DNA of 42,452 nucleotides from a virus: IMG/VR virus record IMGVR_UViG_3300028146_000019, positions 1 through 42,452 of that record. One strand, written 5' to 3'. Of this stretch, positions 2,813 through 41,078 are shown in pieces; the first letter of the stretch is position 1; each line of letters opens with the position of its first letter. The notes below the pieces were generated by a model that worked only from the letters and a program-made list of their open reading frames with translations, ran no database searches and was not told where the DNA came from. A program made the translations under genes and the position numbers.

Positions 2813-3000
2813 CCCACGCACAGGCCCTCCTGTTGGCCGCGGTTGGGCTGACTCACGTCGTCGTCGGCGTGGTGTGGCTGTTCGGGCCGTGGGCCCTCGT
2901 CGGGTCCGGTCTGTGTTTGTTCGCTGTCGCTCTGTTCGTGCCTTGGAAGGAGCGGCGTGGCGAACCTGTTCCGGAGTCTGATCTCCCGCCGCCCGACTGA
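2809..3000 (+). CDS. Small two-helix membrane protein
   Basis: This 63-aa protein starts at a GTG that overlaps the terL stop. Residues 5-47 form two hydrophobic helices, separated by the short turn F-G-P-W, then comes a charged tail (K-E-R-R ... P-P-P-D). No family is recognised. The last 44 nt overlap the portal gene, so translation is probably coupled. Small membrane proteins between terminase and portal are common in actinophages, but no function can be assigned. Confidence 0.7.
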   Translation: MTHAQALLLAAVGLTHVVVGVVWLFGPWALVGSGLCLFAVALFVPWKERRGEPVPESDLPPPD

Positions 3001-10396: not shown

Positions 10397-10422
10397 GGGC
10401 GTCGCCACACCAGGCGGCGCCC
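10397..10422 (+). terminator. Terminator-like or attenuator hairpin
   Basis: A 10-bp stem (GGGCGTCGCC with GGCGGCGCCC, one G-U pair, 6-nt loop) is followed by TTTCGC. It lies between the portal-effector unit and the prohead protease. The short T-run suggests partial termination that would set the relative expression of head genes. Confidence 0.5.
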
Positions 10423-10455
10423 TTTCGCATGGGCGCAGGCCGTCATGGAGGTCCC

Positions 10456-11871
10456 GTGTCGTACCGCAACGAGGGTGACGGCGAGGGCACCGGCCGCGGA
10501 CCAGCACCCAGCACCCAGCAGCAGAGCCAAGCCCACCCGCACGCGGGGAAGGGCAGCCCCAAGGGCGGCCAGTTCGTCAAGAAAGGCACCGCAACCGGCG
10601 GTGGTGGCGGCGGGCGCCGGACCCGCCGTACGGTTCAGACCCACCCGACCGGACACGGGACTCACCCAGATGCCCCGCCGAACCGGCATCGGGCGATGCA
10701 CACCGGCGACACCGGCTCCGACGTCGCCGAGCTCAACGGCCTGCTCTCCAAACTCGGTCTGGCCCACACCGGCGACTCGAGCACCTACCTGCCGTCAACC
10801 AGCGACGCCGTGATGGACGCCCAACGCCGCCTCGGGTTGAAACCCACCGGCAAGGCCTCCGCCGCGCTGCTGCGCAAACTCCACGCCGCTGTCGCCCTGT
10901 CGCCGTGCATCAAACGCTCCGACGACGACGCCGAACCGTCCGTATCCCGCGCCTACACCACCCCCCGCGAAGACCCGGACCGAGGAGGTGCGCGGATGCC
11001 CCAGGACCTCACCCGCGCCGAAATGCCCACGCAGGACGACGTGGACGCCGAGGAGGCGGTAGCCGAGCCCCTCCGGCCGCAGGGCGGGCTGGAGATCCTC
11101 CGCTACGACCGGCTGTGGGCCCTCGACGACATCGAGATCCGCCGCGGCGGTGACGGCCGCACGGTCGAGGCGTACGCGGCGGTATTCAACACCCCCACCG
11201 AGATCCGCGACCAGCACGGCCACTACATGGAGGTCATCGAGCGGTCCGCGTTCAACCGGGCCATCTCCCACGGCATCGACCGCATCGGCGTGTTCTACCA
11301 CCACGGCATGACCCTCCACGGCACCCCCAGCGACCTCGGCTCGGTCCCGATCGGATCCCCGGTGGACGTGCGCGCGGACGGCAAGGGCCTGCGCACCGTC
11401 TCCCGCTTCAACAAGTCCGCGTTGGCCGACTCGGTTCTCGAAGCGATCCGCGCCGGCGATATCAAGGGCTACTCCTTCCGGGGCCGAATCTTCCAGTCCA
11501 CGCCCAGCCGGCCGCCGGCCCGCACCAGCCGCGCCGGCGAGCTCCCCACGGTCACGCGCACCGAGCTCGGCCTGACCGAGTACGGCCCCACCCCCACCCC
11601 GTACTACGCGGACGCCGGCATCCTCGCCATCCGCTCCGCAGATGCGGTGGCCCACGAACTCCGCGCGCTCGACGAGAGCACGCGAGCGGAACTGATCCGC
11701 ATCCTGTCCGCCTCCACTCCTCCCACCGAGGACCCGGATCCGGACATCAACGCCACTCCCGCCAAGGGACCCGGCGCCGAGGACCCGCCTGCTGAGGCAC
11801 TCCGGTCGGCATCCATGGCAACGGTGCGGCGAAAGGTCGCCGCCTTCAGGATCCTTGGGAGGATCACGTGA
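10456..11871 (+). CDS. Prohead protease with N-terminal peptidoglycan-binding-like domain
   Basis: This 471-aa protein is an HK97/U35-type capsid maturation protease. The protease domain covers about 195-370: A-Y-A-A-V-F-N-T, H282-H283 in F-Y-H-H-G, and S340 in G-Y-S-F-R-G are the expected catalytic His and Ser elements. Residues about 75-140 look like a peptidoglycan-binding domain (S-D-V-A-E-L-N-G-L-L-S-K-L-G ... V-M-D-A-Q-R-R-L-G-L-K-P-T-G-K). Residues 30-42 carry the H-x-H-A-x-K-G-x-x-x-G-G-Q-F motif seen in the portal and zincin. The C-terminus (454-471) contains R-R-K-V-A-A-F-R-I-L-G, like the N-termini of the zincin and GNAT proteins. I prefer GTG 10456, behind GGAGG at 10447-10451, to ATG 10429, which has no ribosome site. 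Confidence 0.88.
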   Translation: MSYRNEGDGEGTGRGPAPSTQQQSQAHPHAGKGSPKGGQFVKKGTATGGGGGGRRTRRTVQTHPTGHGTHPDAPPNRHRAMHTGDTGSDVAELNGLLSKLGLAHTGDSSTYLPSTSDAVMDAQRRLGLKPTGKASAALLRKLHAAVALSPCIKRSDDDAEPSVSRAYTTPREDPDRGGARMPQDLTRAEMPTQDDVDAEEAVAEPLRPQGGLEILRYDRLWALDDIEIRRGGDGRTVEAYAAVFNTPTEIRDQHGHYMEVIERSAFNRAISHGIDRIGVFYHHGMTLHGTPSDLGSVPIGSPVDVRADGKGLRTVSRFNKSALADSVLEAIRAGDIKGYSFRGRIFQSTPSRPPARTSRAGELPTVTRTELGLTEYGPTPTPYYADAGILAIRSADAVAHELRALDESTRAELIRILSASTPPTEDPDPDINATPAKGPGAEDPPAEALRSASMATVRRKVAAFRILGRIT

Positions 11872-12544
11872 GCACCAAGCGCCTGGCCGAAGTCCAGGCA
11901 CAGATGGACCTGCTCAGCCAGAAGCTGGCCGAGCTGGAGGAGCTGCCCGAGCCCGACGGCGACGAGGCCCTGCGGTCGCAGGTCATCGACGAGCGCGACA
12001 AGCAGGCCGACAACTACATCGCCGAGTACAAGGCGCTCGACAAGGAGCTGGGGCCGCTTCTGGAGCGGGCCAAGGAGCTCGACGTCATCCGTGCCGCGGC
12101 ACGCGACCAGACCCGGGTCGAGTCCGGTGACGGCGCGAAGTACCTCGGCACCACCGGGCCCGAGTACCGCAAGAAGGTCGACCCGTTCGCCGGCGACATC
12201 CGCCGGGCGTCGCACGGCGAGGTCATCTCGCGGGCCATGTCCCTGGTCGACGGGGAGCGGCGTGTGCCGATCTCCGACGAAGGCAAGGCGCACCTGGAGC
12301 GGCTCATCCACCGCTCCATGGACGACGAGGAGAACGGCCAGATCGACGGCGCGTACATCGCCAAGCGGACCCTGTACACCGAGGACCCCATGTATCGGTC
12401 GGCGTTCCGCAAGTACGCCCGGTTCGGCGGGATGGCCCACTTCAACGCCGACGAGTCGCGCGCCGTGGCCGCATTCCAGGAGTACGAGGTCCTGCGTGCC
12501 GCGTCGGAGAACACCACCACCGCCGGCGGGTTCGGAATCCCGGT
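11868..12544 (+). CDS. Major capsid protein, exon 1
   Basis: This is the 5' exon of the HK97-fold major capsid gene, starting at a GTG behind GGAGG and overlapping the protease stop. Residues 1 to about 75 form a coiled-coil delta/scaffolding domain (L-A-E-V-Q-A-Q-M-D-L-L-S-Q-K-L-A-E-L), probably removed by the prohead protease. The exon ends in T-A-G-G-F-G-I-P-V. Read straight on, translation would stop at 12560 after four more residues, which is not a capsid protein. Joining 12544 to 13504 keeps the frame (GT + C) and gives ...G-I-P-V-L-I-D-P-T-I-I-L-T-S-G, the usual capsid sequence. The joined protein is 509 aa. Confidence 0.9.
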
Positions 12545-13503
12545 CAATTTGGCCGCCTGACGCCGCAAGGTGTCAGTGAAAATCCCGAGAATTGCTGGAA
12601 CATCCTGCTAGACGGTCGCACCACAGCGTGAGGCGAAAGCCTGAGCGCGACGGTTCGAGAAGCGGCCGGTAGGGACAATCAGCAGCCGAGCCCGCCTGGA
12701 CCTCGAGTCCGACGGGAAGGTTCAACGACTATGTACGGGATATCTCGTTAGATCCAACTATCGTCTACACTGAGTGTGTGGAACGAGAGTGCGAAGTCTG
12801 TAAGGCCGTCTTCCTGGCGCGTCGCGGCGTAGACAAGACCTGCGGCATGGACTGCCAGATCCAGTGGCGCCGTCGCCTCAGCCGAGAACGCGCCGCCCGC
12901 TACTACAAGCCGCGGCCGCCGCGGCCAGACACGCAATGCGAGGCATGCAAGGCCCGCATTCCGGCCCCGAGGACGGGGGCGATGCCTCGGTGGTGTGTCA
13001 GTTGTAGGGCCAAGAAGGAAGACGTCCGCGCCCGCAAAAGGGTTGCCGTCCGCCGCTGTTACAAATGTCAGGTACCCGTTCCAGGTGCGGAACGGAAACC
13101 GGGCGTGGCGGTCTGTGACAACTGCCGGGTCGACCCGCGAAAGCATCGGGCCAATCACGAGCAGCGCCGTCGGCTCCGAAAGTATGGGCTGACGCAGGTC
13201 GAATACGACCAGTTGCTTGCCCGTCAACGTGGCCAATGTCCAGGGTGCCGGACGGAAGACCCGGGCGCCAAGGGCTGGTGCATCGACCACTGCCACAACA
13301 CCGGCCGCGTTCGCGGCCTGCTGTGCAACCGGTGCAACACGATGCTGGGGCTGGCGAACGAGGACGCCTCGATCCTCCGGTCGCTCGCGGACTTCGCAGA
13401 ACGAATGAACGAGATAAAGATATAGTCTGAGCTTCGCGGAGACGCGAAGAGGCCGGCAGAAATGACCGGCCCGCCCGACATTCGTTGGGTAGTAACAACA
13501 CTG
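12545..13503 (+). ncRNA. Group I intron in the major capsid gene
   Basis: This 959-nt insert has group I core elements in order: P (AATTGCTGGAA, 12590-12600), Q (AATCAGCAGC, 12677-12686), R (GTTCAACGACTAT, 12720-12732) and S (AAGATATAGTCTG, 13417-13429). GACTAT in R pairs with ATAGTC in S (P7). P1 can form from CGGTC (12541-12545) and GGCCG (12551-12555), placing exon T12544 opposite G12552, the required U-G pair. The last intron base, G13503, is the expected terminal G. Stems with GNRA loops occur at 12631-12642 (GAAA) and 13432-13449 (GAGA). The endonuclease gene lies between R and S, in the P8 loop. Splice sites are inferred from the capsid frame and P1. Confidence 0.9.
12778..13425 (+). 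CDS. Intron-encoded endonuclease VII-type HNH homing endonuclease
   Basis: This 215-aa protein ends in a recombination endonuclease VII-type HNH domain: C-P-G-C near 154-157, then C-I-D-H-C-H-N-T-G-R-V-R-G-L-L-C-N-R-C-N, which holds the catalytic D-H and the zinc Cys pairs. The N-terminal 110 residues carry further Cys pairs (C-E-V-C, C-E-A-C, C-V-S-C, C-Y-K-C), as in the HNH protein at 159. Its place in the P8 loop of a capsid-gene intron shows a homing role: cutting intronless capsid alleles to spread the intron. It starts at GTG 12778 without a clear ribosome site. Its stop codon lies inside the S element, so coding sequence and ribozyme core overlap. Confidence 0.88.
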   Translation: MERECEVCKAVFLARRGVDKTCGMDCQIQWRRRLSRERAARYYKPRPPRPDTQCEACKARIPAPRTGAMPRWCVSCRAKKEDVRARKRVAVRRCYKCQVPVPGAERKPGVAVCDNCRVDPRKHRANHEQRRRLRKYGLTQVEYDQLLARQRGQCPGCRTEDPGAKGWCIDHCHNTGRVRGLLCNRCNTMLGLANEDASILRSLADFAERMNEIKI

Positions 13504-14356
13504 CCTCATCGACCCGACCATCATCCTCACCTCCGGCGCGATGGATGCGCCCCTGCTGCGGGTCTGCCGCATCGAGCAGGTCACCAACAACATCTGGAAG
13601 GGCGTCAGCTCGGCCGGCATGACGTGGTCGTTCGACACGGAGGCCGCCGAGGTCAGCGACGACACGGCGACCCTCGCCCAGCCGTCCGTGACGGTCCACA
13701 TGGGCCGCGGCCTGATCCCGTACTCGATCGAGGTCGGCCAGGATTACCCCGGCTTCGCCAGCGAGATGTCCCGCCTGCTCAACCAGGGCTGGATGGACCT
13801 GCTCGCGCTGAAGACCATGACCGGTACGGGTTCCGGCGAGCCGTGGGGCATCTTCACCGCCATCGACCAGACCAGCGCGTCGGAGGTCGTCACCACGACC
13901 GACGGCAGCTTCGGCGGAGTCGACGTGTTCAAGACCTGGAATGCGCTTCCTGAGCGCTACCGCTCGCGGGCGACGTGGGTCATGAACGTGACCGTCGAGT
14001 CGACCGTCCGGCAGTTCGCTGCGTCGGCGGGTTCCAGCTCGGCGTACTTCACCGTCGACCTGACCCAGGATGGCGTGTCCCGCATCAACGGTCGCCCGGT
14101 CATCCTGACCGACTACGCGCCGGCGGGCGTGAGCGGCGTCGTTCCGGGCACCACCGGCGCCCAGAACATCCTGGTCGTCGGCGACTTCTCCAACTACCTG
14201 ATCGCGCAGCGAGCGGGCATGTCCGTGGAGCAGATCCCCATGCTGTGGGGCTCGGGGAACCGGCTTCCCACCGGCCAGCGCGGCCTGTTCGCGTGGGCTC
14301 GTGTGGGCGGGGACAGCATCGCGGACAACGCCTTCCGGCTCCTGCAGAACCAGTAG
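13504..14356 (+). CDS. Major capsid protein, exon 2
   Basis: This 3' exon supplies most of the HK97 fold: L-I-D-P-T-I-I-L-T-S-G at the junction, then R-V-C-R-I-E-Q-V-T-N-N-I-W-K-G, the E-loop and P-domain region (T-W-S-F-D-T-E-A-A-E-V), and the A-domain (G-V-S-R-I-N-G-R-P-V-I-L-T-D-Y). It ends in F-R-L-L-Q-N-Q. The ATG at 13541 lies inside the fold and has no ribosome site, so I do not treat it as a separate gene start. Two competing hairpins follow the stop. Confidence 0.92.
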
Positions 14357-14372
14357 CCCCATTCCATCTACT

Positions 14373-14413
14373 CCCGGCGCCCGTTTGGACGGGCGGGCGC
14401 CGGGCCCGTCCAA
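14373..14413 (+). promoter_or_regulatory. Two mutually exclusive hairpins after the capsid gene
   Basis: Stem A is a perfect 11-bp pair, 14373-14383 with 14394-14404 (CCCGGCGCCCG / CGGGCGCCGGG). Stem B is a perfect 9-bp pair, 14385-14393 with 14405-14413 (TTGGACGGG / CCCGTCCAA). B uses the loop of A, so both can hardly form at once. With no T-tract, this fits an RNA-stability or partial attenuation element that lowers downstream expression relative to capsid. Confidence 0.6.
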
Positions 14414-14433
14414 CCGTCCACACTGGAGTAACC

Positions 14434-14658
14434 GTGGAGTACGTGTTTTCGGCCAACGACGGCCTGGTGCGCTGGAGCGACACCCGCGTATCGATGAGCC
14501 CCAACGACGTGTGGTTCGCCGACGACCCGTTCGTCGTCGCCCGGCCGGACCTGTTCAGCACCACACCTCTGGTCGTGCACTCGACGCAGGGCCGCCAGGC
14601 GCCGCCGGCGGCGCCGCTAGCGGCTGCGGCGGCGAAGGGGCGGAGTCGTCGTGTCTGA
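14434..14658 (+). CDS. Conserved small head-region protein
   Basis: This 74-aa protein starts at GTG 14434 behind GGAG (14425-14428). The pattern F-S-A-N-D-G-L-V-R-W-S-D-T-R-V, then W-F-A-D-D-P-F-V-V-A-R-P-D-L-F and V-H-S-T-Q-G-R is one I know from small proteins just after capsid genes in actinophages. The Arg/Ala-rich tail is probably unstructured. A role as a head-completion or capsid-associated protein is inferred from position. Confidence 0.8.
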   Translation: MEYVFSANDGLVRWSDTRVSMSPNDVWFADDPFVVARPDLFSTTPLVVHSTQGRQAPPAAPLAAAAAKGRSRRV

Positions 14659-16039
14659 CGTGAAGGTTTCGCTAGGGTTCGTGTACCAGAACAGCCGGCC
14701 GGCGACGTTCGACGACTGCCGCGAGCGGATGCTCGCGTTCGACCGGAACAACCTGGGCCTGTTCTGCCACGAACGTGGCCGGGTGTCGACCCGTTCGGGA
14801 ACCGATGGTCTGGTCGCCGCCCGGAACAGCGTGGTGCGAGCGTTCCTGGACGGCCCGGCCGACTGGCTGCTGTGGGTTGACTCCGACATGGGCTTCGACG
14901 AGGACGCCCCGTATCGGTTGCTGCAGGTGGCCGATCCGGTCGAGCGGCCGATCGTCGGTGGGTTGTGCTTCGTGAACCGCGAGTACGCGCACGACGGGAT
15001 GATGGGGTTCCGTACCCGGCCTGTGCCGACCCTGTACGACTGGCGCGAAGACACGGACGGGGTCCCGAAGTTCCTGTCCAACCCGATGTATCCGGTGAAT
15101 GCCCTCGTGCGGACGGCCGCGACGGGGTCAGCGTTCGTGCTGATCCACCGCAGCGTCTTTGAACGGATGGCGCAGACGGCGGAAGGCGACCCGAAGTTCG
15201 GCGAGTGGTACGACCGCATCCGGGGCCACGACGGGAAACACCTCGGCGAGGACGTGTCGTTCTGCGCCCGCGCCGGGCTGCTTGATATCCCGGTGTTCGT
15301 CTACACCGGCGTCCGCACCACGCACTTCAAGAACATCTGGCTGGGCGAGGCAGACCACTGGTTCCGCTACGTCGCACCCCAGGCCACGGAACAGACCGCG
15401 GTGATTGTCCCAACCCTGGGGCGCCCACAGAACGCGGACCCGTTCATGACGTCGCTGCGGGCGTCGACCGGTCTGGCGACCGCGTACGCGGTCTGCGACG
15501 CCGACGACCCGCAGTCCGTCGAGGCGTGGTCCGCGGCTGGCGCCCAGGTGATCGTCGACAACGCGGTGACGTTCGCGCGCAAGGTGAACCTCGGCTACGC
15601 GAAGACGTCCGAGCCCTGGCTCTTCCTGGTCGGCGACGACGTGCGCTTCCATGCCGCCTGGCTGGACCACGCCCAACACGTCGCCGACGTGTTGCAGGCG
15701 GACGTGGTCGGCACCAACGACCTCGGCAACCCCAGGGTCATGCGCGGCGAGCACGCCACCCACATGCTGATCCGCCGCTCCTACGTGGACGCGGTCGGCG
15801 GGTCGTGGGACGGTCCCGGCGTTGTAGCCCATGAGGGCTACCGGCACTGGTCGGTCGACGACGAGCTGGTGACGGCCGCGAAGCAGCGCGGCGTGTGGCA
15901 GATGGCCCTCGGGTCGGTGGTCGAGCACAACCATCCGCTGTGGGGCAAGGGCAAGGACGACCCTACGTACCGAATCGGGCCGGCCCATGCCGAGGCGGAC
16001 CGGGCACTGTTCGAGTCGCGGCTGGCGGCGAACTCATGA
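14651..16039 (+). CDS. Two-domain family 2 glycosyltransferase
   Basis: This 462-aa protein contains two GT-A-type domains. The first (about 1-240) has the metal-binding D-S-D in L-L-W-V-D-S-D-M-G-F near 75-82 and an acidic G-E-D-V-S-F-C-A-R-A-G near 197. The second (about 245-455) starts I-V-P-T-L-G-R-P and has V-G-D-D-V-R-F plus S-V-D-D-E-L. It would transfer sugars from nucleotide donors. It starts at GTG 14651, overlapping the small head gene by 8 nt, so it is made with the capsid genes. That location suggests the acceptor is the capsid. Donor and acceptor cannot be read from the sequence. Confidence 0.88.
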   Translation: MSDVKVSLGFVYQNSRPATFDDCRERMLAFDRNNLGLFCHERGRVSTRSGTDGLVAARNSVVRAFLDGPADWLLWVDSDMGFDEDAPYRLLQVADPVERPIVGGLCFVNREYAHDGMMGFRTRPVPTLYDWREDTDGVPKFLSNPMYPVNALVRTAATGSAFVLIHRSVFERMAQTAEGDPKFGEWYDRIRGHDGKHLGEDVSFCARAGLLDIPVFVYTGVRTTHFKNIWLGEADHWFRYVAPQATEQTAVIVPTLGRPQNADPFMTSLRASTGLATAYAVCDADDPQSVEAWSAAGAQVIVDNAVTFARKVNLGYAKTSEPWLFLVGDDVRFHAAWLDHAQHVADVLQADVVGTNDLGNPRVMRGEHATHMLIRRSYVDAVGGSWDGPGVVAHEGYRHWSVDDELVTAAKQRGVWQMALGSVVEHNHPLWGKGKDDPTYRIGPAHAEADRALFESRLAANS

Positions 16040-16221
16040 TGCGTTACTGCGTCGGCAAGCACGATTCGGCCGCGATCATCAACGTCCCGGCAGACGCACC
16101 ACCGTACTGCTGCGACGACTGCGCCTCCGACGACGCTGAGTGCGCCTGCGACGCGGCCGACTTTTCTGCGCCGTACGTCGGTGCGTTGCCGCCCTCACAC
16201 CCCCTGGCGCGTAAGGGATGA
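16036..16221 (+). CDS. Small Cys-rich protein
   Basis: This 61-aa protein overlaps the stop of the preceding glycosyltransferase (ATGA). It has Cys at position 5 and a dense cluster Y-C-C-D-D-C-A-S-D-D-A-E-C-A-C-D, likely a small metal-binding or disulphide unit. No family is recognised. It sits inside the sugar-modification cassette, between glycosyltransferase and methyltransferase. Confidence 0.65.
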   Translation: MMRYCVGKHDSAAIINVPADAPPYCCDDCASDDAECACDAADFSAPYVGALPPSHPLARKG

Positions 16222-16745
16222 TCACGCTCTCCTGGCGCGATGTGAGCCTGGGCGACGGTCCGGCGATCTCGACGTCGCTGACCCCGGCCGAGTCCGACGA
16301 GCTGCGCCGCCTGGCCACGGGCGCCGACGTGCTCGAGGTTGGGTCGGCGTTCGGCTACAGCGCGATCCTCATGGCACTCGCCGGCGCGCGTTCCGTCATC
16401 GCGGTGGACCCGCACGTGTGGCTGGACTCGTGGGCCACCATGGTCGCAAACGTCGAGGCGTACGGGGTTGCCGATCGGGTGACGATCTGGCGGGGTGACT
16501 CGCAGACCCTGTTGCCGACACTGGGCGCGGCGTTCGACCTGGTGTGGATCGACGGCGACCATGAAGCGTCAGCCGTGGCGCGGGACGTGGAACTGGCCCG
16601 GGCAGTGCTGCGCCCCACGGGGACGCTCGCCTGTCACGACTACGACGAGGCCACGTGTCCCGGTGTCCGGGCGGCGCTGGACGCGTGGAAGCCGCCGCCG
16701 CGGCTGGTGGACACGCTGGCCGTATACGGGCCGGGTGAGTGGTGA
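16218..16745 (+). CDS. Class I SAM-dependent methyltransferase
   Basis: This 175-aa protein has the SAM-binding motif I V-L-E-V-G-S-A-F-G-Y-S near 38-48, an acidic residue at the end of beta2 (I-A-V-D-P-H), and L-V-W-I-D-G-D-H-E near 110-118. It ends with an A-C-H-D-Y-D strand, the pattern of Methyltransf_24 enzymes that act on small molecules or sugars. It lies between glycosyltransferase and oxidoreductase genes, so methylation of a sugar added to the virion is the likely role. Start and stop overlap the neighbours. Confidence 0.87.
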   Translation: MITLSWRDVSLGDGPAISTSLTPAESDELRRLATGADVLEVGSAFGYSAILMALAGARSVIAVDPHVWLDSWATMVANVEAYGVADRVTIWRGDSQTLLPTLGAAFDLVWIDGDHEASAVARDVELARAVLRPTGTLACHDYDEATCPGVRAALDAWKPPPRLVDTLAVYGPGEW

Positions 16746-17761
16746 GAGTCGCGGTTGTCGGGGCTGGCGTGTTCGGCTGCACCGCGGCGATCGACCTCGC
16801 CCGCGCGGGCGCGCAGGTGGACCTGTTCGAGGCGCGGGGCGACATCCTGACGGGTGCGACGGCCCGGTGTCAGGCCCGGTTGCACCGCGGCTACCACTAT
16901 CCGCGTAGTGACGCGACAGCCCAAGCGGCGCGGGATGGATTCGAGGAGTTCTCGACCCGGTTCCCGACCGCCGTGAGGTCGTTCACCCACCACTACGTCA
17001 TCGCCCCCGGCAGTCGCACCACCGCAGCCGACTATCTGGCGTTCTGCGACCGGCTCGGCCTGCCCTACACGGTCCTGGACCGGCACCCCGCCGTCCACAG
17101 CGCCGATCTGATCGTGCGGGTGCCCGAGGCCATGATCGCCGTGGACGCGCTGCGGCGGCTGCTGCGCCGAGACCTGGCCGCGGCCGGGGTGACCGTGCAC
17201 CTCAACACCCCGGCGGGCGAGCTTGCCGGCTACGACCGGACGGTGTGGGCCACCTACGGACAGCCGTGGACCCACCCCCTGCGGTACGAGGTATGCGAGG
17301 TGGCGTTGGTCGAGGTGGGCCGCTACGGTCGCGACTCGTTCGTCGTCCTAGACGGCGACTACGTGTCGTTGGACCCATACGGCCGCGTCTTCGCCCTCTA
17401 CGACGTGAAGCACAGCGTCCACACCGCGAGCGTGGGCGACGGTCCGGACCTGGCGCCCGAGTACGCAGACCTGGTCCGCCGAGGTCGGGTGGGGACGTCG
17501 CTGAGCCACGCACCCGAAATGCTCGAGAGCGCTGGCCGGTTCCTGCGGGGCCTGGATCCGCACGGACGCGGCGTGAGCATCTATCACGGATCCCTGTGGT
17601 CCGTGCGGGCCGTCCTCCCCGACGTCGACGCCACCGACGAACGCCCCACGCTCATCGAAACGTCCGGCGGCGGGGTACGGATCCTGTCGGGGAAGATCTG
17701 CACCGCCCCAGCGGCGGCGCGGGCGGTGACCGCGGCGGCGCTCGGACTTGTGCCGGCATGA
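16742..17761 (+). CDS. FAD-dependent oxidoreductase of the surface-sugar type
   Basis: This 339-aa protein opens with the dinucleotide-binding motif V-A-V-V-G-A-G-V-F-G, and has F-E-A-R-G at the end of the second strand. The segment A-R-C-Q-A-R-L-H-R-G-Y-H-Y-P-R-S is typical of FAD oxidoreductases found in polysaccharide clusters, and the C-terminal G-K-I-C-T-A-P-A-A-A fits FAD binding. GTG 16742 gives M-R-V-A-V-V-G-A-G; GTG 16739 is one codon earlier and also possible. It would oxidise a sugar or related small molecule; the substrate is unknown. Confidence 0.83.
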   Translation: MRVAVVGAGVFGCTAAIDLARAGAQVDLFEARGDILTGATARCQARLHRGYHYPRSDATAQAARDGFEEFSTRFPTAVRSFTHHYVIAPGSRTTAADYLAFCDRLGLPYTVLDRHPAVHSADLIVRVPEAMIAVDALRRLLRRDLAAAGVTVHLNTPAGELAGYDRTVWATYGQPWTHPLRYEVCEVALVEVGRYGRDSFVVLDGDYVSLDPYGRVFALYDVKHSVHTASVGDGPDLAPEYADLVRRGRVGTSLSHAPEMLESAGRFLRGLDPHGRGVSIYHGSLWSVRAVLPDVDATDERPTLIETSGGGVRILSGKICTAPAAARAVTAAALGLVPA

Positions 17762-18339
17762 TCTCGGTCATCACCCCGACGTGGCAACGCCACGAACTGC
17801 TTATCACCCGGTGCATGCCGTCCGTGGCCGCGCAGACAGTCCCGGTCGAACATGTCGTAGTGTCCGACGGCCCCGACCCGGTCCTGCGTGACCTGCTCGC
17901 TGATAGCGGCGTGACGTACGCCGAGGTGGCCGAGCACGCCGACGACCCCTGCAACTACGGGGCCAGGGCCCGCAACCGGGGCCTTGAGGTCGCCAGCGGC
18001 GATCTGATTGCCTACCTCGACGACGACAACGCCTTCCACTCCGACCACGTCGCAAAACTCGCCGCGGCATTGACCGCCAACCCGGGTCGGGACTTCGCGT
18101 ACACCCAGATGATCCGCCACGGCCTGGGCGACACGATCGGCTCTGAGCCGCCAGCCCACGGGTCGATCGACTCGTCGGTGCTGATGCACCGGGCGGACGG
18201 GCCGGCCCGGTTCGGCCCGTGGCCGGTGCCGTCGCCGTACGAGGTGGACTGGGTGTTCGTGCGGACGTGGCTTGCCGCTGGTGCCACGTGGGTGTTCGTG
18301 CCCGGCGTCAGCGTCGACTACTACTACACGCCGCGATGA
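17758..18339 (+). CDS. Family 2 glycosyltransferase
   Basis: This 193-aa protein is a compact GT-A glycosyltransferase. It opens with S-V-I-T-P-T-W-Q-R, has N-Y-G-A-R-A-R-N-R-G-L near 63-73, and the metal-binding Y-L-D-D-D-N near 85-90. A basic or acidic acceptor region follows (D-S-S-V-L-M-H-R). It is shorter than most GT2 enzymes, ending soon after the catalytic core. Both ends overlap its neighbours (ATGA), so the cassette is one translational unit. Confidence 0.87.
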   Translation: MISVITPTWQRHELLITRCMPSVAAQTVPVEHVVVSDGPDPVLRDLLADSGVTYAEVAEHADDPCNYGARARNRGLEVASGDLIAYLDDDNAFHSDHVAKLAAALTANPGRDFAYTQMIRHGLGDTIGSEPPAHGSIDSSVLMHRADGPARFGPWPVPSPYEVDWVFVRTWLAAGATWVFVPGVSVDYYYTPR

Positions 18340-18947
18340 TCTCCTGGATCGTCGCCTCGAACCAGCCGGCGGTCCTCAAGGAGAACCTGCTGGCCACCCT
18401 CAACCCAGACGATGGCGACGAGGTCATCGTCATCCCGGATCCCAAGTCCATCACTCAGGCGTACGCGCAGGGGCAGGCGAAGGCCACCTGTCCGATCCGC
18501 TGCTACGTCCACTCCGACGTCGAGGTTCTCGACCCGCACCGGCTGCGCACCGAGCTTGAGGTCTGCCACCGCGCCGATGTCGGCATTGTAGGCGTCATTG
18601 GTTCGAGGGACCGGCGGATGCCGTGGTGGGACGGGCAATGCCTCGGATCGGTGGTGGATGGGCGCGGTAGCTTCGGCGTCCTCGACTTCGGACCCGGCGG
18701 GCCATGCTCCATGGTGGACGGGCTGCTCCTCGCCACTGCCCAGACGATCGACTGGGACGAGTCCTGGCCCGGGTTTCATGGCTACGACCACGACTCGTGC
18801 GCCCAGATGCTCGCCCGCGGGCTGACGAACTGGTGCCTCACCGGCGGGCACGAGCTTGTGCGGCACAACACCAGCGGCACGCGAGATCCGACTCGGCTGG
18901 GCGGCTGGGACGACTCCATTAAGCGATACGAGGCGAAGTGGGGGTAG
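18336..18947 (+). CDS. Glycosyltransferase-like protein
   Basis: This 203-aa protein has a GT-A outline: W-I-V-A-S-N-Q at the start, C-Y-V-H-S-D-V-E-V as the D-x-D-like motif near 56-64, then G-V-I-G-S-R-D, V-D-G-L-L-L-A, and F-H-G-Y-D-H-D-S-C-A-Q near 146-157. This order resembles the Glyco_tranf_2_5 group. It overlaps the upstream stop. It is the last enzyme of the first sugar cassette. Confidence 0.78.
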   Translation: MISWIVASNQPAVLKENLLATLNPDDGDEVIVIPDPKSITQAYAQGQAKATCPIRCYVHSDVEVLDPHRLRTELEVCHRADVGIVGVIGSRDRRMPWWDGQCLGSVVDGRGSFGVLDFGPGGPCSMVDGLLLATAQTIDWDESWPGFHGYDHDSCAQMLARGLTNWCLTGGHELVRHNTSGTRDPTRLGGWDDSIKRYEAKWG

Positions 18948-18950
18948 GCC

Positions 18951-19316
18951 ATGGCTGACGGTTGGGGTGTGGCCGGCGCTAACACCGCCCTCGACGCTCA
19001 CGGCACCGCCTACCCGTGGATCAAGCTGCATGTGGGATCGCCCGGCGCGGCTGGGACGACGAGCACGGCGACGGAGACGACTCGCAAGCAGGCGTCGTGG
19101 GCATCCGCCGCCAACGGGGCGAAGGCCACCGGCGCCGACCTCACCTGGACGAACGTGGCGGGGTCGGAGACGTACACCCACTACTCGCAGTGGAGCGCGG
19201 CGACGAACGGGTCATTCGGCGGCTCCGGCGCGATCACGGCCAACCCGGTAACCGCTGGGGACACCTTCACCGTCCCATCAGGTTCTCTGATCCTCACGCT
19301 GCCTCTGGCGAGCTGA
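18951..19316 (+). CDS. Small fibre-like phage structural protein
   Basis: This 121-aa protein is rich in Gly, Ala, Ser and Thr and predicted to be beta-stranded. The pattern of an N-terminal Y-P-W-I-K-L-H-V-G-S-P-G, a middle T-E-T-T-R-K-Q-A-S-W-A-S-A-A, and a later Y-S-Q-W-S-A-A-T-N-G-S-F-G-G-S-G matches proteins annotated as tail fibre or minor structural proteins in actinophages. The exact place in the virion is unknown. Its stop overlaps the next start. Confidence 0.75.
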   Translation: MADGWGVAGANTALDAHGTAYPWIKLHVGSPGAAGTTSTATETTRKQASWASAANGAKATGADLTWTNVAGSETYTHYSQWSAATNGSFGGSGAITANPVTAGDTFTVPSGSLILTLPLAS

Positions 19317-20053
19317 TGACCGAGCGCCTGTACTCCACGCAGACGCCGGAAACCGACTCGAACGACCCCGCGACGAAGCACACCTACGGGATGCGGCTGG
19401 CGTTCTCCGCTGCGGGCACGATATCGGCCGGCCGGATCTGGTGCCCGAACCCGAAACCACCCACGTACTTTGGGTGGGCGCTGTTCCGAGTCTCCGACCA
19501 GGCGCTGCTGTCCAGTGTGGACCTGACTGCGGTGAGCCTGACCGCTGGCGCGTGGAATCCGGTAACCCTGTCCGGGTCGGTGTCGGTCCTGTCGTCGGAG
19601 ACGTACGTGGTGGCCGCGCACTACGAGGGCGGGCACCAGGTGTTCAGCACCTCGTCGGTGCCGTTCCCGCTTAGCAACGGCGCCCACATCACCGCCGATA
19701 CGGGCATGTTCGTCAACGGTGGCACCCCGTCGACGTACCCGGGTAGCACATTCGCCCTGTACGCCTTCGCCGATGTGGAGTTCGCCGCAGGCGGGTCCAC
19801 CGTCACCGGTACGGCCTCAGCGACGCTGGGTGCTCTGGCCGGCGCCGCGACAGGCGTGCGCACCACCTTCGGAACGGCAGCGGCGACCCTGGGCGCGCTC
19901 GTCGGTCTGGCCACCGTCATCGGCACTCCGGCTCGTTCGACGCCGACGGTCGCCGCAGCGCGCTCGTCGGTGGACAGCACCACCGTCCGCCGCACCGCTG
20001 TCGACTCGGTCGCAGCGACCCGCACCTCCACCCCCACCGTGACGGGAGGCTGA
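19316..20053 (+). CDS. DUF4082-type carbohydrate-binding-like structural protein
   Basis: This 245-aa protein has a beta-sandwich region at about 20-160 that resembles DUF4082 (Y-G-M-R-L-A-F-S-A-A-G-T-I, W-A-L-F-R-V, Y-V-V-A-A-H-Y-E-G-G-H). The C-terminal third holds a near-repeat, G-T-A-S-A-T-L-G-A-L-A-G and G-T-A-A-A-T-L-G-A-L-V-G, followed by a low-complexity Ser/Thr/Arg/Val tail. It may bind sugars on the virion surface or host. That role is inferred from the fold type. Confidence 0.7.
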   Translation: MTERLYSTQTPETDSNDPATKHTYGMRLAFSAAGTISAGRIWCPNPKPPTYFGWALFRVSDQALLSSVDLTAVSLTAGAWNPVTLSGSVSVLSSETYVVAAHYEGGHQVFSTSSVPFPLSNGAHITADTGMFVNGGTPSTYPGSTFALYAFADVEFAAGGSTVTGTASATLGALAGAATGVRTTFGTAAATLGALVGLATVIGTPARSTPTVAAARSSVDSTTVRRTAVDSVAATRTSTPTVTGG

Positions 20054-20054
20054 C

Positions 20055-20963
20055 GTGGCGACCGTCTTCTACGCCGACACCAACGAGCTCGCGACGCTCA
20101 CCAACGTGTTCAAGGTCAGCGGGACTGCGACGGACCCGACGGCGATCAGCCTGACGGTCACGGACCCGCAGGGCACCGCCACCACGTACACGTACGCGCT
20201 CGCCGAGATCACCCGCTCGTCGGCGGGCACGTACACCAAGGACATTCCCTGCACGCTGGCGGGGATCTGGCACTACAAGTGGGTCGGCACTGGCACCGCC
20301 TCGGATGTCGTCGAGGGATCGTGGACCGTGCAGCCCGTTGGCGATCAGCTGTACGGATCGCTGGAGGAACTCAAGTCCCGGTTCGCGATCACCGACACCG
20401 TCGACGACGTTGAGCTGAAGCGGGCGATGCGCGCCGTCAACCGGGGCATCAACAACTTCTGCGGCCGGGTGTTCACTCGCGCCACCACCGCGACAGCACG
20501 CCGGATCCCGAACCTCGCGATCGGCAGCCCGTACGGGTGGGGCGGTTGCCGGGTCAACGTGCCCGACTTCTGGACCACGGCCGGTCTGGTGGTGGAGACA
20601 GACACCGGCAACGACGGGACCTTCGCCACCGCCCGTACCGACTTCGAGCTGTACCCGCTGGACGGCATCGTCGACGGTGAGACCGGCTGGCCGTACAACG
20701 AGATCGAGTTCTACAACGGCATCCTGTACCCGCCGACCAACAACCGCCCGTACTTGCGGGTGACGGCGAAGTGGGGCTGGGCGGAGGTGCCCGAGCCGGT
20801 CCACGAGGCGTTCATGATCCTCGCTTCGGACACGTTCAAGCTGAAAGACGCCCCGTTCGGCGTCGGCGGCTACGGGCAGTTCGGTGCGGTCAGAGTGCGG
20901 GAGAACCAGATGGCCGCCGCAAAGCTGTCGCCGTTCGTGCGGGACCTGGTGCTCGTCGCATGA
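20055..20963 (+). CDS. Head-tail connector with N-terminal Ig-like domain
   Basis: This 302-aa protein starts at GTG 20055 behind GGGAGG. Residues 1 to about 95 form an Ig-like beta domain (F-K-V-S-G-T-A-T-D-P ... G-I-W-H-Y-K-W-V-G-T-G). From about 100 on it resembles gp6-type head-tail adaptors: Y-G-S-L-E-E-L-K-S-R-F, D-V-E-L-K-R-A-M-R-A-V-N-R-G-I, then a beta-rich middle and a C-terminal helix K-L-S-P-F-V-R-D-L. It would join the portal ring to the tail. Confidence 0.8.
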   Translation: MATVFYADTNELATLTNVFKVSGTATDPTAISLTVTDPQGTATTYTYALAEITRSSAGTYTKDIPCTLAGIWHYKWVGTGTASDVVEGSWTVQPVGDQLYGSLEELKSRFAITDTVDDVELKRAMRAVNRGINNFCGRVFTRATTATARRIPNLAIGSPYGWGGCRVNVPDFWTTAGLVVETDTGNDGTFATARTDFELYPLDGIVDGETGWPYNEIEFYNGILYPPTNNRPYLRVTAKWGWAEVPEPVHEAFMILASDTFKLKDAPFGVGGYGQFGAVRVRENQMAAAKLSPFVRDLVLVA

Positions 20964-21391
20964 CTGACGTCGCCGCGATTCGCACCGCCCTCGCGGCCCT
21001 CGCTGAAACTGCCGCGATCACGGTGAACAGCACCAGTGTGCCGATCCGCAGCTACGACGACGTACCGACCACAGTGGACCCCGGCTCGGGTGTAGCGGTG
21101 CTGATCAGCCCCGGCGCCCCGTTCCTCACCCCGGTCACCCTCGACGGCGCCGACGACGTGTCCCTCAACGCCGTCGTCGTCACGTCGCGCTCGTCGGAGC
21201 GTTCCGCCCAGGCCCGCCTCGACGCCGCCGCGATCGCGCTCCGCGACGTGTTCACCTCCGACCACACCACGAACTGGGACTTCGTCGAGCCGGGCAACCC
21301 CACCGCCTACGGCGACTACACCTTCGGATCCGGTGACAACGCGCTGAGCTTCTACGGCTTCACCATGGCCCTGCAGGTGGCCACGTCCTGA
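20960..21391 (+). CDS. Tail terminator / head-tail joining protein (probable)
   Basis: This 143-aa protein overlaps the connector gene stop (ATGA). It has an N-terminal helix (D-V-A-A-I-R-T-A-L-A-A-L), then alternating strands and a central helix S-A-Q-A-R-L-D-A-A-A-I-A-L, the alpha/beta outline of tail terminator proteins. The ending F-Y-G-F-T-M-A-L-Q-V-A fits the final strand. Assignment depends on position between connector and tail tube and on size. Confidence 0.65.
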   Translation: MTDVAAIRTALAALAETAAITVNSTSVPIRSYDDVPTTVDPGSGVAVLISPGAPFLTPVTLDGADDVSLNAVVVTSRSSERSAQARLDAAAIALRDVFTSDHTTNWDFVEPGNPTAYGDYTFGSGDNALSFYGFTMALQVATS

Positions 21392-22410
21392 TGCGGTGGG
21401 TTGTCGCCCAGCCTGGCCCCGCGTTCAGTGTGCAGGACGTTTTCGCCGGCTGGTGTGAGGCGCTGCGCGAGCTCGGCCAGCACGTCGTTGAGTACAACCT
21501 GGACAGTCGGCTCACGTTCTACTCCGCGGCGCTCCTGCCCACCGACGAGGACGGCAAGTTCCGGCAGGCCCTGAGCCCTGAAGCGGCCAAGCACCTCGCC
21601 GTCAGTGGCATCTTCGCGACGCTGTACCAGACCCGCCCCGACGTGCTGCTCGTCGTGTCCGGCTTCTACTTGCCCACCGAGGTGTACCGCCTGGCCCGCG
21701 CGTACGGCACCCGCGTGGTGCTGCTCCACACCGAGTCCCCGTACGAGGACCAGCGCCAAGCAGCGCTCGCCGAGCTGGCCGACGTCAACCTGCTCAACGA
21801 TCCGACGAACATCGACTCGTTCCCGCCGAACACCGTGTACATGCCGCACGCCTACCGACCGTCGGTGCACGCCCCCGGTCGGGCCGTGTCGGAGTTGGCG
21901 TGTGATCTGGCGTTCGTCGGCACCGGCTACCCGTCGCGGGTGGCGTTCTTCGAAGCGATGAACCTCGACGGGCTCGACGTGCTGCTGGCTGGGCCGTGGC
22001 TGTCCACCACCGAGACGTCGCCGCTGCGTCGGTTCTTGGGCCACGACTTGGACCAGTGCCTCGACAACGCCGACGCGGTGCCGATCTACCGCTCCGCCAA
22101 GGCCGGCATCAACCTGTACCGCCGCGAGGCCGAACGACCAGAACTGTCGGAGGGCTGGGCGATGGGGCCCCGCGAGGTCGAGATGGCCGCCAGCGGCTTG
22201 TTCTTCCTCCGCGACCCGCGCGGTGAGGGCGACGAGGTGCTGCACATGCTGCCCACCTTCACCTCGCCCGAGGACGCCACAGACCAGCTGCGGTGGTGGC
22301 TGGACCGACCAGACGAACGCGCCGTCGTGGCGCGTAAGGCCCGCGAGGCAGTAGCCGACCGGACGTTCCACAAGCACGCCGCGGGGCTGCTGCGGCTACT
22401 CGACTCCTAG
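21391..22410 (+). CDS. CgeB-like glycosyltransferase next to the tail tube gene
   Basis: This 339-aa protein has the two-domain outline of GT-B enzymes of the CgeB type. Evidence is P-D-V-L-L-V-V-S-G-F-Y near 89-99, V-V-L-L-H-T-E-S-P-Y-E-D, D-L-A-F-V-G-T-G-Y-P-S-R near 172-183, and the C-terminal donor-site pattern S-A-K-A-G-I-N-L-Y ... G-P-R-E-V-E-M-A-A-S-G. It overlaps the upstream stop and ends 15 nt before the tail tube gene. A role in glycosylating the tail tube is inferred from this placement. Confidence 0.85.
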   Translation: MRWVVAQPGPAFSVQDVFAGWCEALRELGQHVVEYNLDSRLTFYSAALLPTDEDGKFRQALSPEAAKHLAVSGIFATLYQTRPDVLLVVSGFYLPTEVYRLARAYGTRVVLLHTESPYEDQRQAALAELADVNLLNDPTNIDSFPPNTVYMPHAYRPSVHAPGRAVSELACDLAFVGTGYPSRVAFFEAMNLDGLDVLLAGPWLSTTETSPLRRFLGHDLDQCLDNADAVPIYRSAKAGINLYRREAERPELSEGWAMGPREVEMAASGLFFLRDPRGEGDEVLHMLPTFTSPEDATDQLRWWLDRPDERAVVARKAREAVADRTFHKHAAGLLRLLDS

Positions 22411-22425
22411 GAAAGGGAGAAGACA

Positions 22426-22827
22426 TTGAGCCGCATCCATGGCAGGCGCGGGCGTGTGTACCTGGGCATCGCCAGTGACACGGCAGTCGCCGAGCCGCTG
22501 CCGTTCGTCGCGAAGTGGGCGATCAACCACTCCAGCGACAAGGTCGAAGTCACCGCGATGGGTGACAGCAACAAGGTCTACGTCGGTGGCCTCGCTGACG
22601 CCACGGGAACGTTCTCCGGGTCGTACGACAACGCCACTGCCCAGACGTACACCGCCGCGGTGGACGGGCTGGCGCGGAAGTTCTACCTGTACCCGGATCT
22701 GAGCACGAACACCCAGTACTGGTTCGGCACGGTCCTGGTCGACCTGTCCGTCGACGGTGGGGTGGACCAGGCGGTCAACATGTCTGCGGCCTGGAACGCG
22801 GCGAGCCAGGTCCAGAAGGTCGGCTAG
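22426..22827 (+). CDS. Major tail tube protein
   Basis: This 133-aa protein starts at a TTG (22426) behind AAAGGGAGAAG, a strong site that decides the unusual start. It has the beta-rich tail tube outline: V-Y-L-G-I-A-S, W-A-I-N-H-S-S-D-K-V-E-V-T-A-M-G-D-S-N-K, and G-T-F-S-G-S-Y-D-N-A. It ends with a strand and short helix. The position before the chaperones and tape measure supports the call. It is short for the family. Confidence 0.85.
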   Translation: MSRIHGRRGRVYLGIASDTAVAEPLPFVAKWAINHSSDKVEVTAMGDSNKVYVGGLADATGTFSGSYDNATAQTYTAAVDGLARKFYLYPDLSTNTQYWFGTVLVDLSVDGGVDQAVNMSAAWNAASQVQKVG

Positions 22828-23285
22828 TGGCGGTAGTCGAGGTTCGGGTCACTGACATCCCGGCGAAGGCGAAAGAGCTTCGCCGGGAAGCGGCCCGCCT
22901 CCAGCGGCGCATCTCCTCGGCGGCGGGTCGGGTGGTGGAGACCCACCTCCGGCCCCGCATTGTCGAGCTGGCCCCGCAGCACCTGCCGTCGGGCTACACG
23001 CCCCTGTTCACGCATGACGTGAAGGTGAAGACGTCGACCCGGTTCGTCGTCAACCCCGGCGTCACGGCGACGGTGTCGGCGCCGACGGGTGGGTCGAAGG
23101 GTCGGGACGTGCCCGCGTTGGAGCGGGGCGTGTTGGCGCATCCGCTGTTCGGCAACAAGCACCGCTGGTTCCGGCAGAAGGTCAAGGCCGGGTTGGCGAA
23201 GACGGCGCTGAAGTCGACCCGTCACGCCATCATCTCGGGCCTCGACGACGAACTCGGCAAGATCGTAAGGGAGTTGGCGACGTGA
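22827..23285 (+). CDS. HK97 gp10-like tail or joining protein
   Basis: This 152-aa basic protein has an N-terminal helical region (A-K-A-K-E-L-R-R-E-A-A-R-L-Q-R-R-I), then R-P-R-I-V-E-L-A-P and L-E-R-G-V-L-A-H-P-L-F-G-N-K-H-R-W, the element typical of HK97-gp10-like proteins in actinophages. It starts at a GTG overlapping the tail tube stop. Here it follows the tail tube gene rather than preceding it. A structural role at the head-tail joint or tail is likely. Confidence 0.75.
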   Translation: MAVVEVRVTDIPAKAKELRREAARLQRRISSAAGRVVETHLRPRIVELAPQHLPSGYTPLFTHDVKVKTSTRFVVNPGVTATVSAPTGGSKGRDVPALERGVLAHPLFGNKHRWFRQKVKAGLAKTALKSTRHAIISGLDDELGKIVRELAT

Positions 23286-29972: not shown

Positions 29973-30716
29973 ATGGCCGTGGTGTTGTTCGTGTTCGCCC
30001 ATCCCGACGACGAGACGTTGGGCGCCTGCGTGGCCCTGTCGGAGCACGTGGCGGCCGGCACGCACGACGTACACGTGCTGACGATGACCCGGGGTGCCGC
30101 GTCGGGAGTCGTCGACGAGTTGGCGGGCGCGTCGGTGGGGCACTGGTGGGGTGTCGCCCACAACCCCGCGCTCGAGGGATACACCGCGCCGACGGCGGAC
30201 GAGTTCGGGCAGCTGCGCATCGACGAGACCCGGCGGGCCCTGGACGCGTTGGCGTCGGGCCTGGGCGCCCCGATCGCCCTGCACGAGGGCGGACTTCTCG
30301 ACACGCAGGTGACCCAGGCGGACGCGCGGTCGCAGATCCTGGCGGTGTGCGACCAGATCAACCCGGGCGGCGTGGTGTGGCTGAAGGGCCACACGCACCT
30401 CGTCGACGACAACACCGACCACACCAACATCGGCAAGGCTCTGCGGGCGATCGCTGCCGCAGACCCGACGCGGTTCTCGAACCTGCGCCACTACGTCCTG
30501 CCCCGGTACTGGTCGGATCCGCGGCTGAGCCAGGTCGCCGAGCAGTGGGACCTGCCCACCAACTCGGTGATCACCTGTCACGCCATCAACGGCATGCGCT
30601 GCTACGGGGCGTGGGCCCCACCGGAGTCGCTGGCCATCGGCTACCACTCGGTGTGGTCCGACATGTTTGCGCCGCAGTTCGCGGGGCCGACGCCGAAGAA
30701 CATGTACCACCCGTGA
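29973..30716 (+). CDS. PIG-L / LmbE-type GlcNAc deacetylase
   Basis: This 247-aa protein has the diagnostic A-H-P-D-D-E-T-L-G at residues 9-17, supplying zinc ligands and the catalytic Asp. A second His element follows (G-H-T-H-L-V-D-D-N-T-D-H-T-N near 138-151). The family removes acetyl groups from N-acetylglucosamine-type sugars; MshB of mycothiol synthesis is a relative. It starts at ATG 29973, two bases after the previous stop, in the tail module. Likely roles are deacetylating host surface glycans during adsorption or modifying sugars attached to the virion. Which one is not resolved. Confidence 0.9.
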   Translation: MAVVLFVFAHPDDETLGACVALSEHVAAGTHDVHVLTMTRGAASGVVDELAGASVGHWWGVAHNPALEGYTAPTADEFGQLRIDETRRALDALASGLGAPIALHEGGLLDTQVTQADARSQILAVCDQINPGGVVWLKGHTHLVDDNTDHTNIGKALRAIAAADPTRFSNLRHYVLPRYWSDPRLSQVAEQWDLPTNSVITCHAINGMRCYGAWAPPESLAIGYHSVWSDMFAPQFAGPTPKNMYHP

Positions 30717-39910: not shown

Positions 39911-39940
39911 AGGCCAGCGGCTGTTTTCAGCCGCTGGCCT
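39911..39940. terminator. Integrase terminator overlapping the stop codon
   Basis: A perfect 13-bp stem (AGGCCAGCGGCTG, CAGCCGCTGGCCT) with a TTTT loop is followed by TTCTTCG on the plus strand. On the minus strand the stop codon lies in the loop, and GGGGTTTTAC follows. It separates attP from integrase and can end transcription from both sides. Confidence 0.75.
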
Positions 39941-41078
39941 TCTTCGTGCCCGGGGGCCGTGCGTCACCCATGCGTCGCCACGATTCGTGAACCTTGTCGT
40001 GCGCGTCCGGCGCGAGGTGCGCGTACCGCTGCGTCGTGGCGTAGCTCTCGTGCCCGAGCAGAGCCTGTACCCGGTACAGGTCGACGCCATCCATCACCAG
40101 CCAGGACGCCGCGGTGTGCCTGAGCGCCCGGGGCGGTAGCCGGCGCAAGCCGGCCGCCTCGATGGCTGGATACCAGACCCGCAGCCGGAAGTCGGAGTCA
40201 TCCACCAGTCCGCCCTTCGGCGCCGTGAAGACGATCGACGTGATCGGCCTGCCCTCCATAAGCGCCGATAGGCGCGGCATCTGCCACGGTGGGACCGGTA
40301 CGACCCGGTGGCTCTTGCGGGACTTCGGATACTCCCTGAGACCCTCACGGGTCTGGACCCGGGTGACCTCGATCTGGTTGCGGAGCCAGTGGACCCGATC
40401 GCCGTAGAGCCCGAAGATCTCGCCCGGCCGCAGGCCGACCCACATGCCCAGCCCGACCAGCGCGGCCCACTGGGGCGCGTAGTTCCGCTCCAGCTCGGCC
40501 AGCAGCGCCTCGGCCTCGTCGTGGCTGAAGAAGTCGATCGGGGATGGCGGGACGACCGGCAGGTCCAAATCGACGAACGGGTTGCTGAGCACGATCGGTG
40601 GGCGTTCCCGTACGGCCGCCTCGAACAGCGCGGACATCACGTGGACGATCTGGTGGACCGTGGCGGCGGAGATCGTCGGGGCCTGCTCCTCGAGCTTCTC
40701 GGCGTCGACCCCCTTGTGGCGGGCGCGCCGCTTCCGCCTCAGGACCTTGACCCACTCCTCGGCTTCCATGCGCGTGATGGCCTCCATGGGCCAGGTGCCC
40801 CACTGGCCGAGGCAGTGGGTGCGCCAGAGCGATTCGGTCTTCGCCGCGGTGACCGGGTCGGTGCCGCGGACCGCCACGCGCCGGCCGTACCATTCGCTCA
40901 CCGTGATGTGGCCGGCCCGGGGATCACGGATCTCGCCCCGGGCGTATCTCGCTTCTTCGTCGCGGGACCACTCGGCCACGATCCGCTTGAGCGGGTCGGT
41001 CTTCGTGATCCGCTTCCCGCTGGGGTGGCGGACGGTAGCTTGCCAGAGGCCTGACGGAAGCTTACGAATGTAGGCCAT
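39927..41078 (-). CDS. int: Tyrosine integrase
   Basis: This 383-aa protein is a tyrosine recombinase with an N-terminal arm-binding domain (residues 1-60, L-P-S-G-L-W-Q-A-T-V-R-H-P-S-G-K-R), a SAM-like core domain (about 75-190), and a catalytic domain (about 195-370). Catalytic Arg lies in V-G-L-R-P-G-E. The second box reads P-P-R-A-L-R-H-T-A-A-S, then L-L-G-H-E-S and the nucleophile Tyr in T-T-Q-R-Y-A-H-L. The His usual at the first place of the H-x-x-R box is Arg here. It starts at ATG 41078, overlapping the repressor stop. It would join attP to the host tRNA-Val gene. Confidence 0.95.
   Translation of the reverse strand: MAYIRKLPSGLWQATVRHPSGKRITKTDPLKRIVAEWSRDEEARYARGEIRDPRAGHITVSEWYGRRVAVRGTDPVTAAKTESLWRTHCLGQWGTWPMEAITRMEAEEWVKVLRRKRRARHKGVDAEKLEEQAPTISAATVHQIVHVMSALFEAAVRERPPIVLSNPFVDLDLPVVPPSPIDFFSHDEAEALLAELERNYAPQWAALVGLGMWVGLRPGEIFGLYGDRVHWLRNQIEVTRVQTREGLREYPKSRKSHRVVPVPPWQMPRLSALMEGRPITSIVFTAPKGGLVDDSDFRLRVWYPAIEAAGLRRLPPRALRHTAASWLVMDGVDLYRVQALLGHESYATTQRYAHLAPDAHDKVHESWRRMGDARPPGTKKASG

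Follow-up and report, generated by a model that had tools for sequence, protein, structure and literature searches.

Probable capsid-side and tail-side virion-glycosylation modules, inherited independently, in a temperate Actinomycetota phage

IMG/VR record IMGVR_UViG_3300028146_000019 is a phage genome record of 42,452 bases (the window, that is, the whole stretch of DNA analysed here), classed as linear and with a G+C content of about 69%. The portal gene is close to its left end, the late operon runs on the plus strand, and glycosyltransferase genes lie behind the major capsid gene and before the gene of the major tail (tube) protein (Table 1), which raises the question of whether each of these enzyme sets serves the virion protein beside it. 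A tyrosine integrase identifies the phage as temperate; its host group is Actinomycetota and it is of soil type. A preliminary description of the same DNA had proposed that one enzyme set is paired with each major virion protein. Comparison with relatives, together with predicted folds, makes it probable that the window carries two independently inherited virion-glycosylation modules, one on the capsid side and one on the tail side. Virion glycosylation itself is known from Che8, Corndog and the Sulfolobus turreted icosahedral virus (STIV), and the new element is one enzyme set per structural polymer.

To evaluate the capsid side, IMG/VR contigs were fetched with capsid exon 2 alone, and the sample is therefore not biased for glycosyltransferases. 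Of the 66 loci in which 1.6 kb or more of sequence followed the capsid gene, some of which are near-duplicates, 64 carried a homologue of the N domain of the two-domain, 462-residue glycosyltransferase (GT2) no more than 2 kb behind the capsid gene, at a median of 495 nucleotides. The two exceptions, L172 and L175, have the connector gene only 698 and 296 nucleotides behind the capsid gene, which accounts for the missing island. In the other loci a variable island lies between GT2 and the connector. In L123, L133 and L144 it holds methyltransferases together with epimerases that resemble GDP-mannose dehydratase, and the order found in the window (methyltransferase, flavin adenine dinucleotide (FAD) enzyme and two glycosyltransferases) is repeated in L002, L005/L006, L011 and L188. 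The stop-start overlaps noted earlier are real and read through the block, and tens of contigs show the same arrangement, more than expected by chance.

The cultured phages and prophages with related capsids (Kita, QueenHazel, prophiGD02-2, REQ1 and Sbash, 32–40% capsid identity) have no glycosyltransferase annotated at the capsid-connector or terminator-tube junction, and in prophiGD02-2 an oxidoreductase and a decoration protein are annotated after the capsid. The glycosyltransferases are therefore extra genes at two defined junctions. Searches against isolate phages gave no match, either for positions 10400–22900 by megablast or for the FAD enzyme and the glycosyltransferase at 18336–18947 by tblastn.

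On the tail side, at least 188 relatives of the GT-B enzyme were found in IMG/VR, and none by tblastn among 50,697 isolate records. The enzyme lies upstream of the tube gene in all 86 loci that combined a strong match to this tube family with enough upstream sequence (within 150 nucleotides in 74; median 22 nucleotides), a count that is biased because most of these loci were fetched through the GT-B enzyme itself; it was likewise upstream in 11 of the 11 loci fetched in other ways. Conversely, it was absent from the 13 contigs of the capsid lineage that lack this tube family; where checked, these encode other PHROG major tail families (phrog_9522, 4574 and 4971). L120 and L170 were considered as tubes without a GT-B gene and rejected, their tube scores of about 25 bits being too weak for this family. 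In the window the GT-B gene ends 15 nucleotides before the tube gene, directly preceding it as originally described. The claim that glycosyltransferases directly follow the capsid gene did not hold, as a conserved 74-residue open reading frame intervenes (14434–14658). Two side observations concern the same region in relatives. Larger gaps between the GT-B and tube genes often hold HNH-like inserts, with reverse-strand HNH-like open reading frames in L039, L041, L052, L064 and L071, and two capsid relatives without the GT-B gene carry two different major-tail-protein genes close together (L123, 7820–8986, and L131, 9840–11764).

Whether the two sets travel together was addressed with pairwise distances, computed without correction for phylogeny. 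For GT2 they went with the capsid, at r=0.81 (n=76), and not with the GT-B enzyme (0.34) or the tube (0.32); for the GT-B enzyme they correlated with the tube (r=0.64, n=88) and the terminator (0.76) and not with the capsid (0.02, n=25). In agreement with this, a prophage of Klenkia brasiliensis DSM 44526 carries the GT-B and tube pair beside a different capsid, with no glycosyltransferase match in its head region. The distance pattern and the Klenkia prophage therefore indicate separate inheritance of the two enzyme sets, each travelling with the structural gene beside it. The pairing put forward in the preliminary description is thus strongly supported as a rule of comparative genomics: GT2 accompanies the capsid lineage, the GT-B gene precedes the tube family, and the modules reassort. 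Among 299 genomes of the Klenkia order, the GT-B gene was found only in Klenkia itself; K. brasiliensis DSM 44526 is a cultivated host of this prophage and offers a ready experimental system.

The enzymes named in the preliminary description are present where it had placed them, and each is supported by Pfam. The AlphaFold model of GT2 (predicted local distance difference test, pLDDT, 94.3) confirmed two tandem GT-A domains, which occur in relatives either fused (49) or unfused (39). The nearest solved fold to the N domain is STIV A197 (Z 19.3, root-mean-square deviation 2.1 over 172 residues), a structural likeness at 15% sequence identity, phmmer having found no match for the capsid-side glycosyltransferase among sequences of the Protein Data Bank (PDB); for the C domain, heparosan synthase, PcManGT, RmlT and ppGalNAc-T2 were tied at Z of about 18–19. 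In 31 sequences with 38–71% identity to the window, D77, D79, E200 and D201 were invariant and D329-D330 nearly so. GT2 thus combines a Pfam score above cut-off, a GT-A fold and a conserved acidic metal-binding motif. The AlphaFold2 model of the GT-B enzyme (pLDDT 90) matched the GT4-type enzymes PimA, BshA and MshA at Z of about 24–25. Its invariant residues are H113, E115, N241, Y243-E246 and G259-E262, which include the HxE and GPRExE set. This CgeB-like protein scores above the Pfam cut-off, is modelled with a GT-B fold and is conserved in residues of its predicted donor region. Sequence searches of the PDB returned nothing useful for the GT-B enzyme, the FAD enzyme or GT2. That the genes are retained almost universally, and with their catalytic residues intact, speaks for a function.

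Comparison with known systems places the window close to, and outside, the described cases. Papers citing Freeman 2023 report that both capsid and tail tube are glycosylated in Che8, Corndog and Myrna, the glycans being C-terminal, and name Che8 gp110 and Corndog gp38 as essential, gp38 for capsid glycosylation (PMC12363180, PMC12619734). The window shares with the Che8/Corndog type the combination of phage-encoded glycosyltransferases and a methyltransferase. Dylan, a Corndog relative of cluster O, likewise has an O-methyltransferase and three glycosyltransferases in overlapping genes among its head genes, one of them (gp35) a 47% homologue of Che8 gp110. In Dylan, unlike in the window, the cassette is flanked by portal and protease and has no FAD oxidoreductase, and no glycosyltransferase precedes the tube gene. 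Che8 gp108–110 resemble the window in grouping a GT2, a Methyltransf_24 domain and small glycosyltransferases, gp108 being a GT2-Methyltransf_24 fusion, but they stand at the far 3' end of the genome, away from capsid and tube. No sequence homology was found between the window's glycosyltransferases and Dylan gp33–35, and phmmer gave no match to the Glyco_transf_25 proteins Che8 gp110 and Dylan gp35; the best BLASTP hit had an E value of 0.017 (the enzyme labelled GT2b against Che8 gp108, 42 residues). STIV A197 is a virus-encoded, essential GT-A enzyme whose presumed target is the glycosylated capsid protein B345 (PMC10551542); it differs from the window's enzyme in having a single domain and in belonging to an archaeal virus rather than a tailed phage. 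CgeB, which has a presumed role in spore-crust glycans (PMC10502511), belongs to the CgeB/YkvP-like family (PF13524), as does the window's GT-B enzyme, which in its phage lineage is fixed beside the tail tube gene. The window's system is predicted to work like the glycosylation of Che8 and Dylan, but stands outside their enzyme family.

A mechanism that would fit these results has two parts. In the head module, the GT-A pair beside the capsid gene would make or start a glycan on the capsid, whether on the capsid protein itself or on a decoration. The variable genes that follow (here the methyltransferase, the FAD enzyme and two glycosyltransferases) would extend and tailor that glycan, a role that other methyltransferases and nicotinamide adenine dinucleotide-dependent epimerases may fill in relatives. 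In the tail module, the CgeB-like, GT4-like GT-B enzyme would use a nucleotide-sugar to modify the tube subunit encoded just downstream. Both modules would be expressed with the late virion genes. Gene content, intact catalytic motifs, folds, conserved adjacency and independent inheritance are observed, the acceptors, the sugars and the order of the steps are inferred, and the glycans might protect the particle or modulate adsorption. A more far-reaching proposal is a serious possibility that we advance tentatively: throughout a large lineage of uncultured actinobacteriophages, each major virion polymer would have its own co-inherited glycosyltransferase, the GT-A pair for one capsid lineage and the GT-B enzyme for one tube family, with glycosylation obligate and coupled to assembly and with head and tail modules swapped separately.

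Several observations weigh against capsid and tube as the acceptors. The virion-glycosylation interpretation of the preliminary description is partly supported and draws on the precedents of Dylan, Che8 and STIV A197. The capsid and tube proteins of Che8 end in GS and GS and those of Dylan in GS and DS, whereas the window's end in LLQNQ and VQKVG; in relatives a terminal Ser occurs in 9 of 95 capsid and 4 of 89 tube proteins. Comparison of the capsids revealed no Ser/Thr column special to those that accompany glycosyltransferases. The T4 alpha-glucosyltransferase, a DNA enzyme, is also among the fold matches of the GT-B enzyme (Z 22.8); a fold shared with known glycosyltransferases does not show the acceptor. 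Finally, the head-fibre-like and DUF4082 proteins are plausible alternative acceptors in this genome, linkage alone would yield some co-inheritance of adjacent genes, and the distances of the GT-B enzyme follow the terminator better than the tube, so the acceptor of this enzyme is not fixed by synteny alone.

The last two points bear on an alternative in which the GT-B gene is linked cargo, or a tail-assembly gene acting on a target other than the tube, its adjacency being merely linkage. We regard this as unlikely, since some of the 86 contigs should then have lost the gene, yet it is kept with its active site intact, even across HNH-type inserts. Somewhat more doubtful still is a reading in which the acceptor of the capsid-side cassette is the head-fibre-like protein, the DUF4082 protein or both, and not the capsid protein. 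Their genes trail the last glycosyltransferase, the first after 3 nucleotides and the second overlapping the first, the C-terminal region of the DUF4082 protein is 30% Ser and Thr, and gp80 relatives occupy the same island in L074, L128, L139 and L141; however, gp80 was found in 16 loci and DUF4082 in 6, against 64 of 66 capsid contigs with the GT2 pair, and both are therefore too rare in relatives to be general acceptors. Remodelling of glycans on the host surface in lysogens or infected cells (serotype conversion or superinfection exclusion) is a known role of the glycosyltransferases of temperate phages (PMC12619734), and the integrase would suit it, but we consider it improbable here, as none of the enzymes of the glycosylation block has a membrane segment, the genes belong to the late virion operon and they covary with the capsid. 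Glycosylation of phage DNA (hypermodification) is the most improbable of all despite the T4 match, with no modified-base synthesis gene among the window genes scanned and with position and covariation favouring virion proteins.

Table 1. Features of the window, with stop-start overlaps given as start of the gene/end of the preceding gene
Feature	Position	Strand	Overlap	Basis or remark
Major capsid protein, exon 1	11868–12544	plus		Splice joint set by alignment with intronless relatives L002/L006/L011
Group I intron in capsid gene	12545–13503	plus		Rfam RF00028
HNH-like homing endonuclease open reading frame inside intron	12778–13425	plus		Cys/His-rich, by sequence inspection only
Major capsid protein, exon 2	13504–14356	plus		About 40% identity to Gordonia phage capsids
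Conserved 74-residue open reading frame between capsid and glycosyltransferase	14434–14658	plus		Homologues in 84 loci
Two-domain GT-A glycosyltransferase, 462 residues (N domain about 1–240, C domain about 241–462)	14651–16039	plus	14651/14658	PF00535, predicted fold
61-residue Cys-rich open reading frame	16036–16221	plus	16036/16039	No Pfam or PHROG match; ATGA overlap at each end
Methyltransf_24-type methyltransferase	16218–16745	plus	16218/16221	PF13578, E 7.6e-20
DAO-type FAD-dependent oxidoreductase	16739–17761	plus	16739/16745	PF01266, E 1.6e-18
GT2 glycosyltransferase	17758–18339	plus	17758/17761	PF00535, E 2.5e-13
GT-A glycosyltransferase (Glyco_tranf_2_5)	18336–18947	plus	18336/18339	PF13712, E 9.2e-18
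Head-fibre-like protein	18951–19316	plus		PF23140 Gp80, E 1.4e-12; phrog_240 head protein, E 4.5e-22
DUF4082 protein	19316–20053	plus		PF13313, E 9.2e-8
Head-tail connector	20055–20963	plus		Position, homologues, synteny in relatives
Tail terminator	20960–21391	plus	20960/20963	Position and homologues
GT-B (CgeB/PF13524, GT4-like) glycosyltransferase	21391–22410	plus	21391/21391	PF13524, E 7.1e-13, 49.2 bits against a cut-off of 25
Major tail (tube) protein	22426–22827	plus		PHROG major tail family phrog_10528, E 2.5e-10
Tyrosine integrase	39927–41078	minus

The 61-residue Cys-rich, head-fibre-like and DUF4082 genes had not been mentioned in the preliminary description; a further correction is that a group I intron splits the capsid gene. 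The spliced capsid protein has 509 residues and is collinear with those of intronless relatives, joined at 12544/13504 between GFGIPV and LIDPTIILT. The 959-nucleotide intron follows a U at the end of the 5' exon, ends in G, allows in-frame ligation and has the conserved core. RF00028 matched in two pieces, because the open reading frame splits the model: 34.1 bits (E 1.2e-6) at 12535–12796 and 21.7 bits for the 3' core at 13415–13447, neither of which reached the Rfam gathering score of 50. Introns in capsid genes are already known from LittleE and Tuc2009 (PMC3706429). Many relatives of the 74-residue open reading frame end in a motif like VE(Q/T)ATAAPGEKR, a possible O-glycan acceptor, which is absent from the window's copy. 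Elsewhere in the window, a 1769-residue open reading frame (2957–8266) fuses the portal protein (residues 107–392) to a lengthy extension that contains a NUDIX domain (1040–1140), the S78 prohead protease (10456–11871) has an N-terminal PG_binding_1 domain, and downstream of the tail genes a PIG-L/LmbE-type GlcNAc de-N-acetylase (29973–30716) might act on a glycan or on the cell wall.

Glycosylation of phage virions has been documented in only a few mycobacteriophages, and here it would be a core trait of a widespread, mostly metagenomic lineage. The pairing provides a simple, testable rule for which enzyme serves which structural protein, and would offer dedicated protein glycosyltransferases with predictable acceptors. 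It may also aid the annotation of unlabelled glycosyltransferases in viral metagenomes, and it bears on how these particles encounter their surroundings and their hosts.

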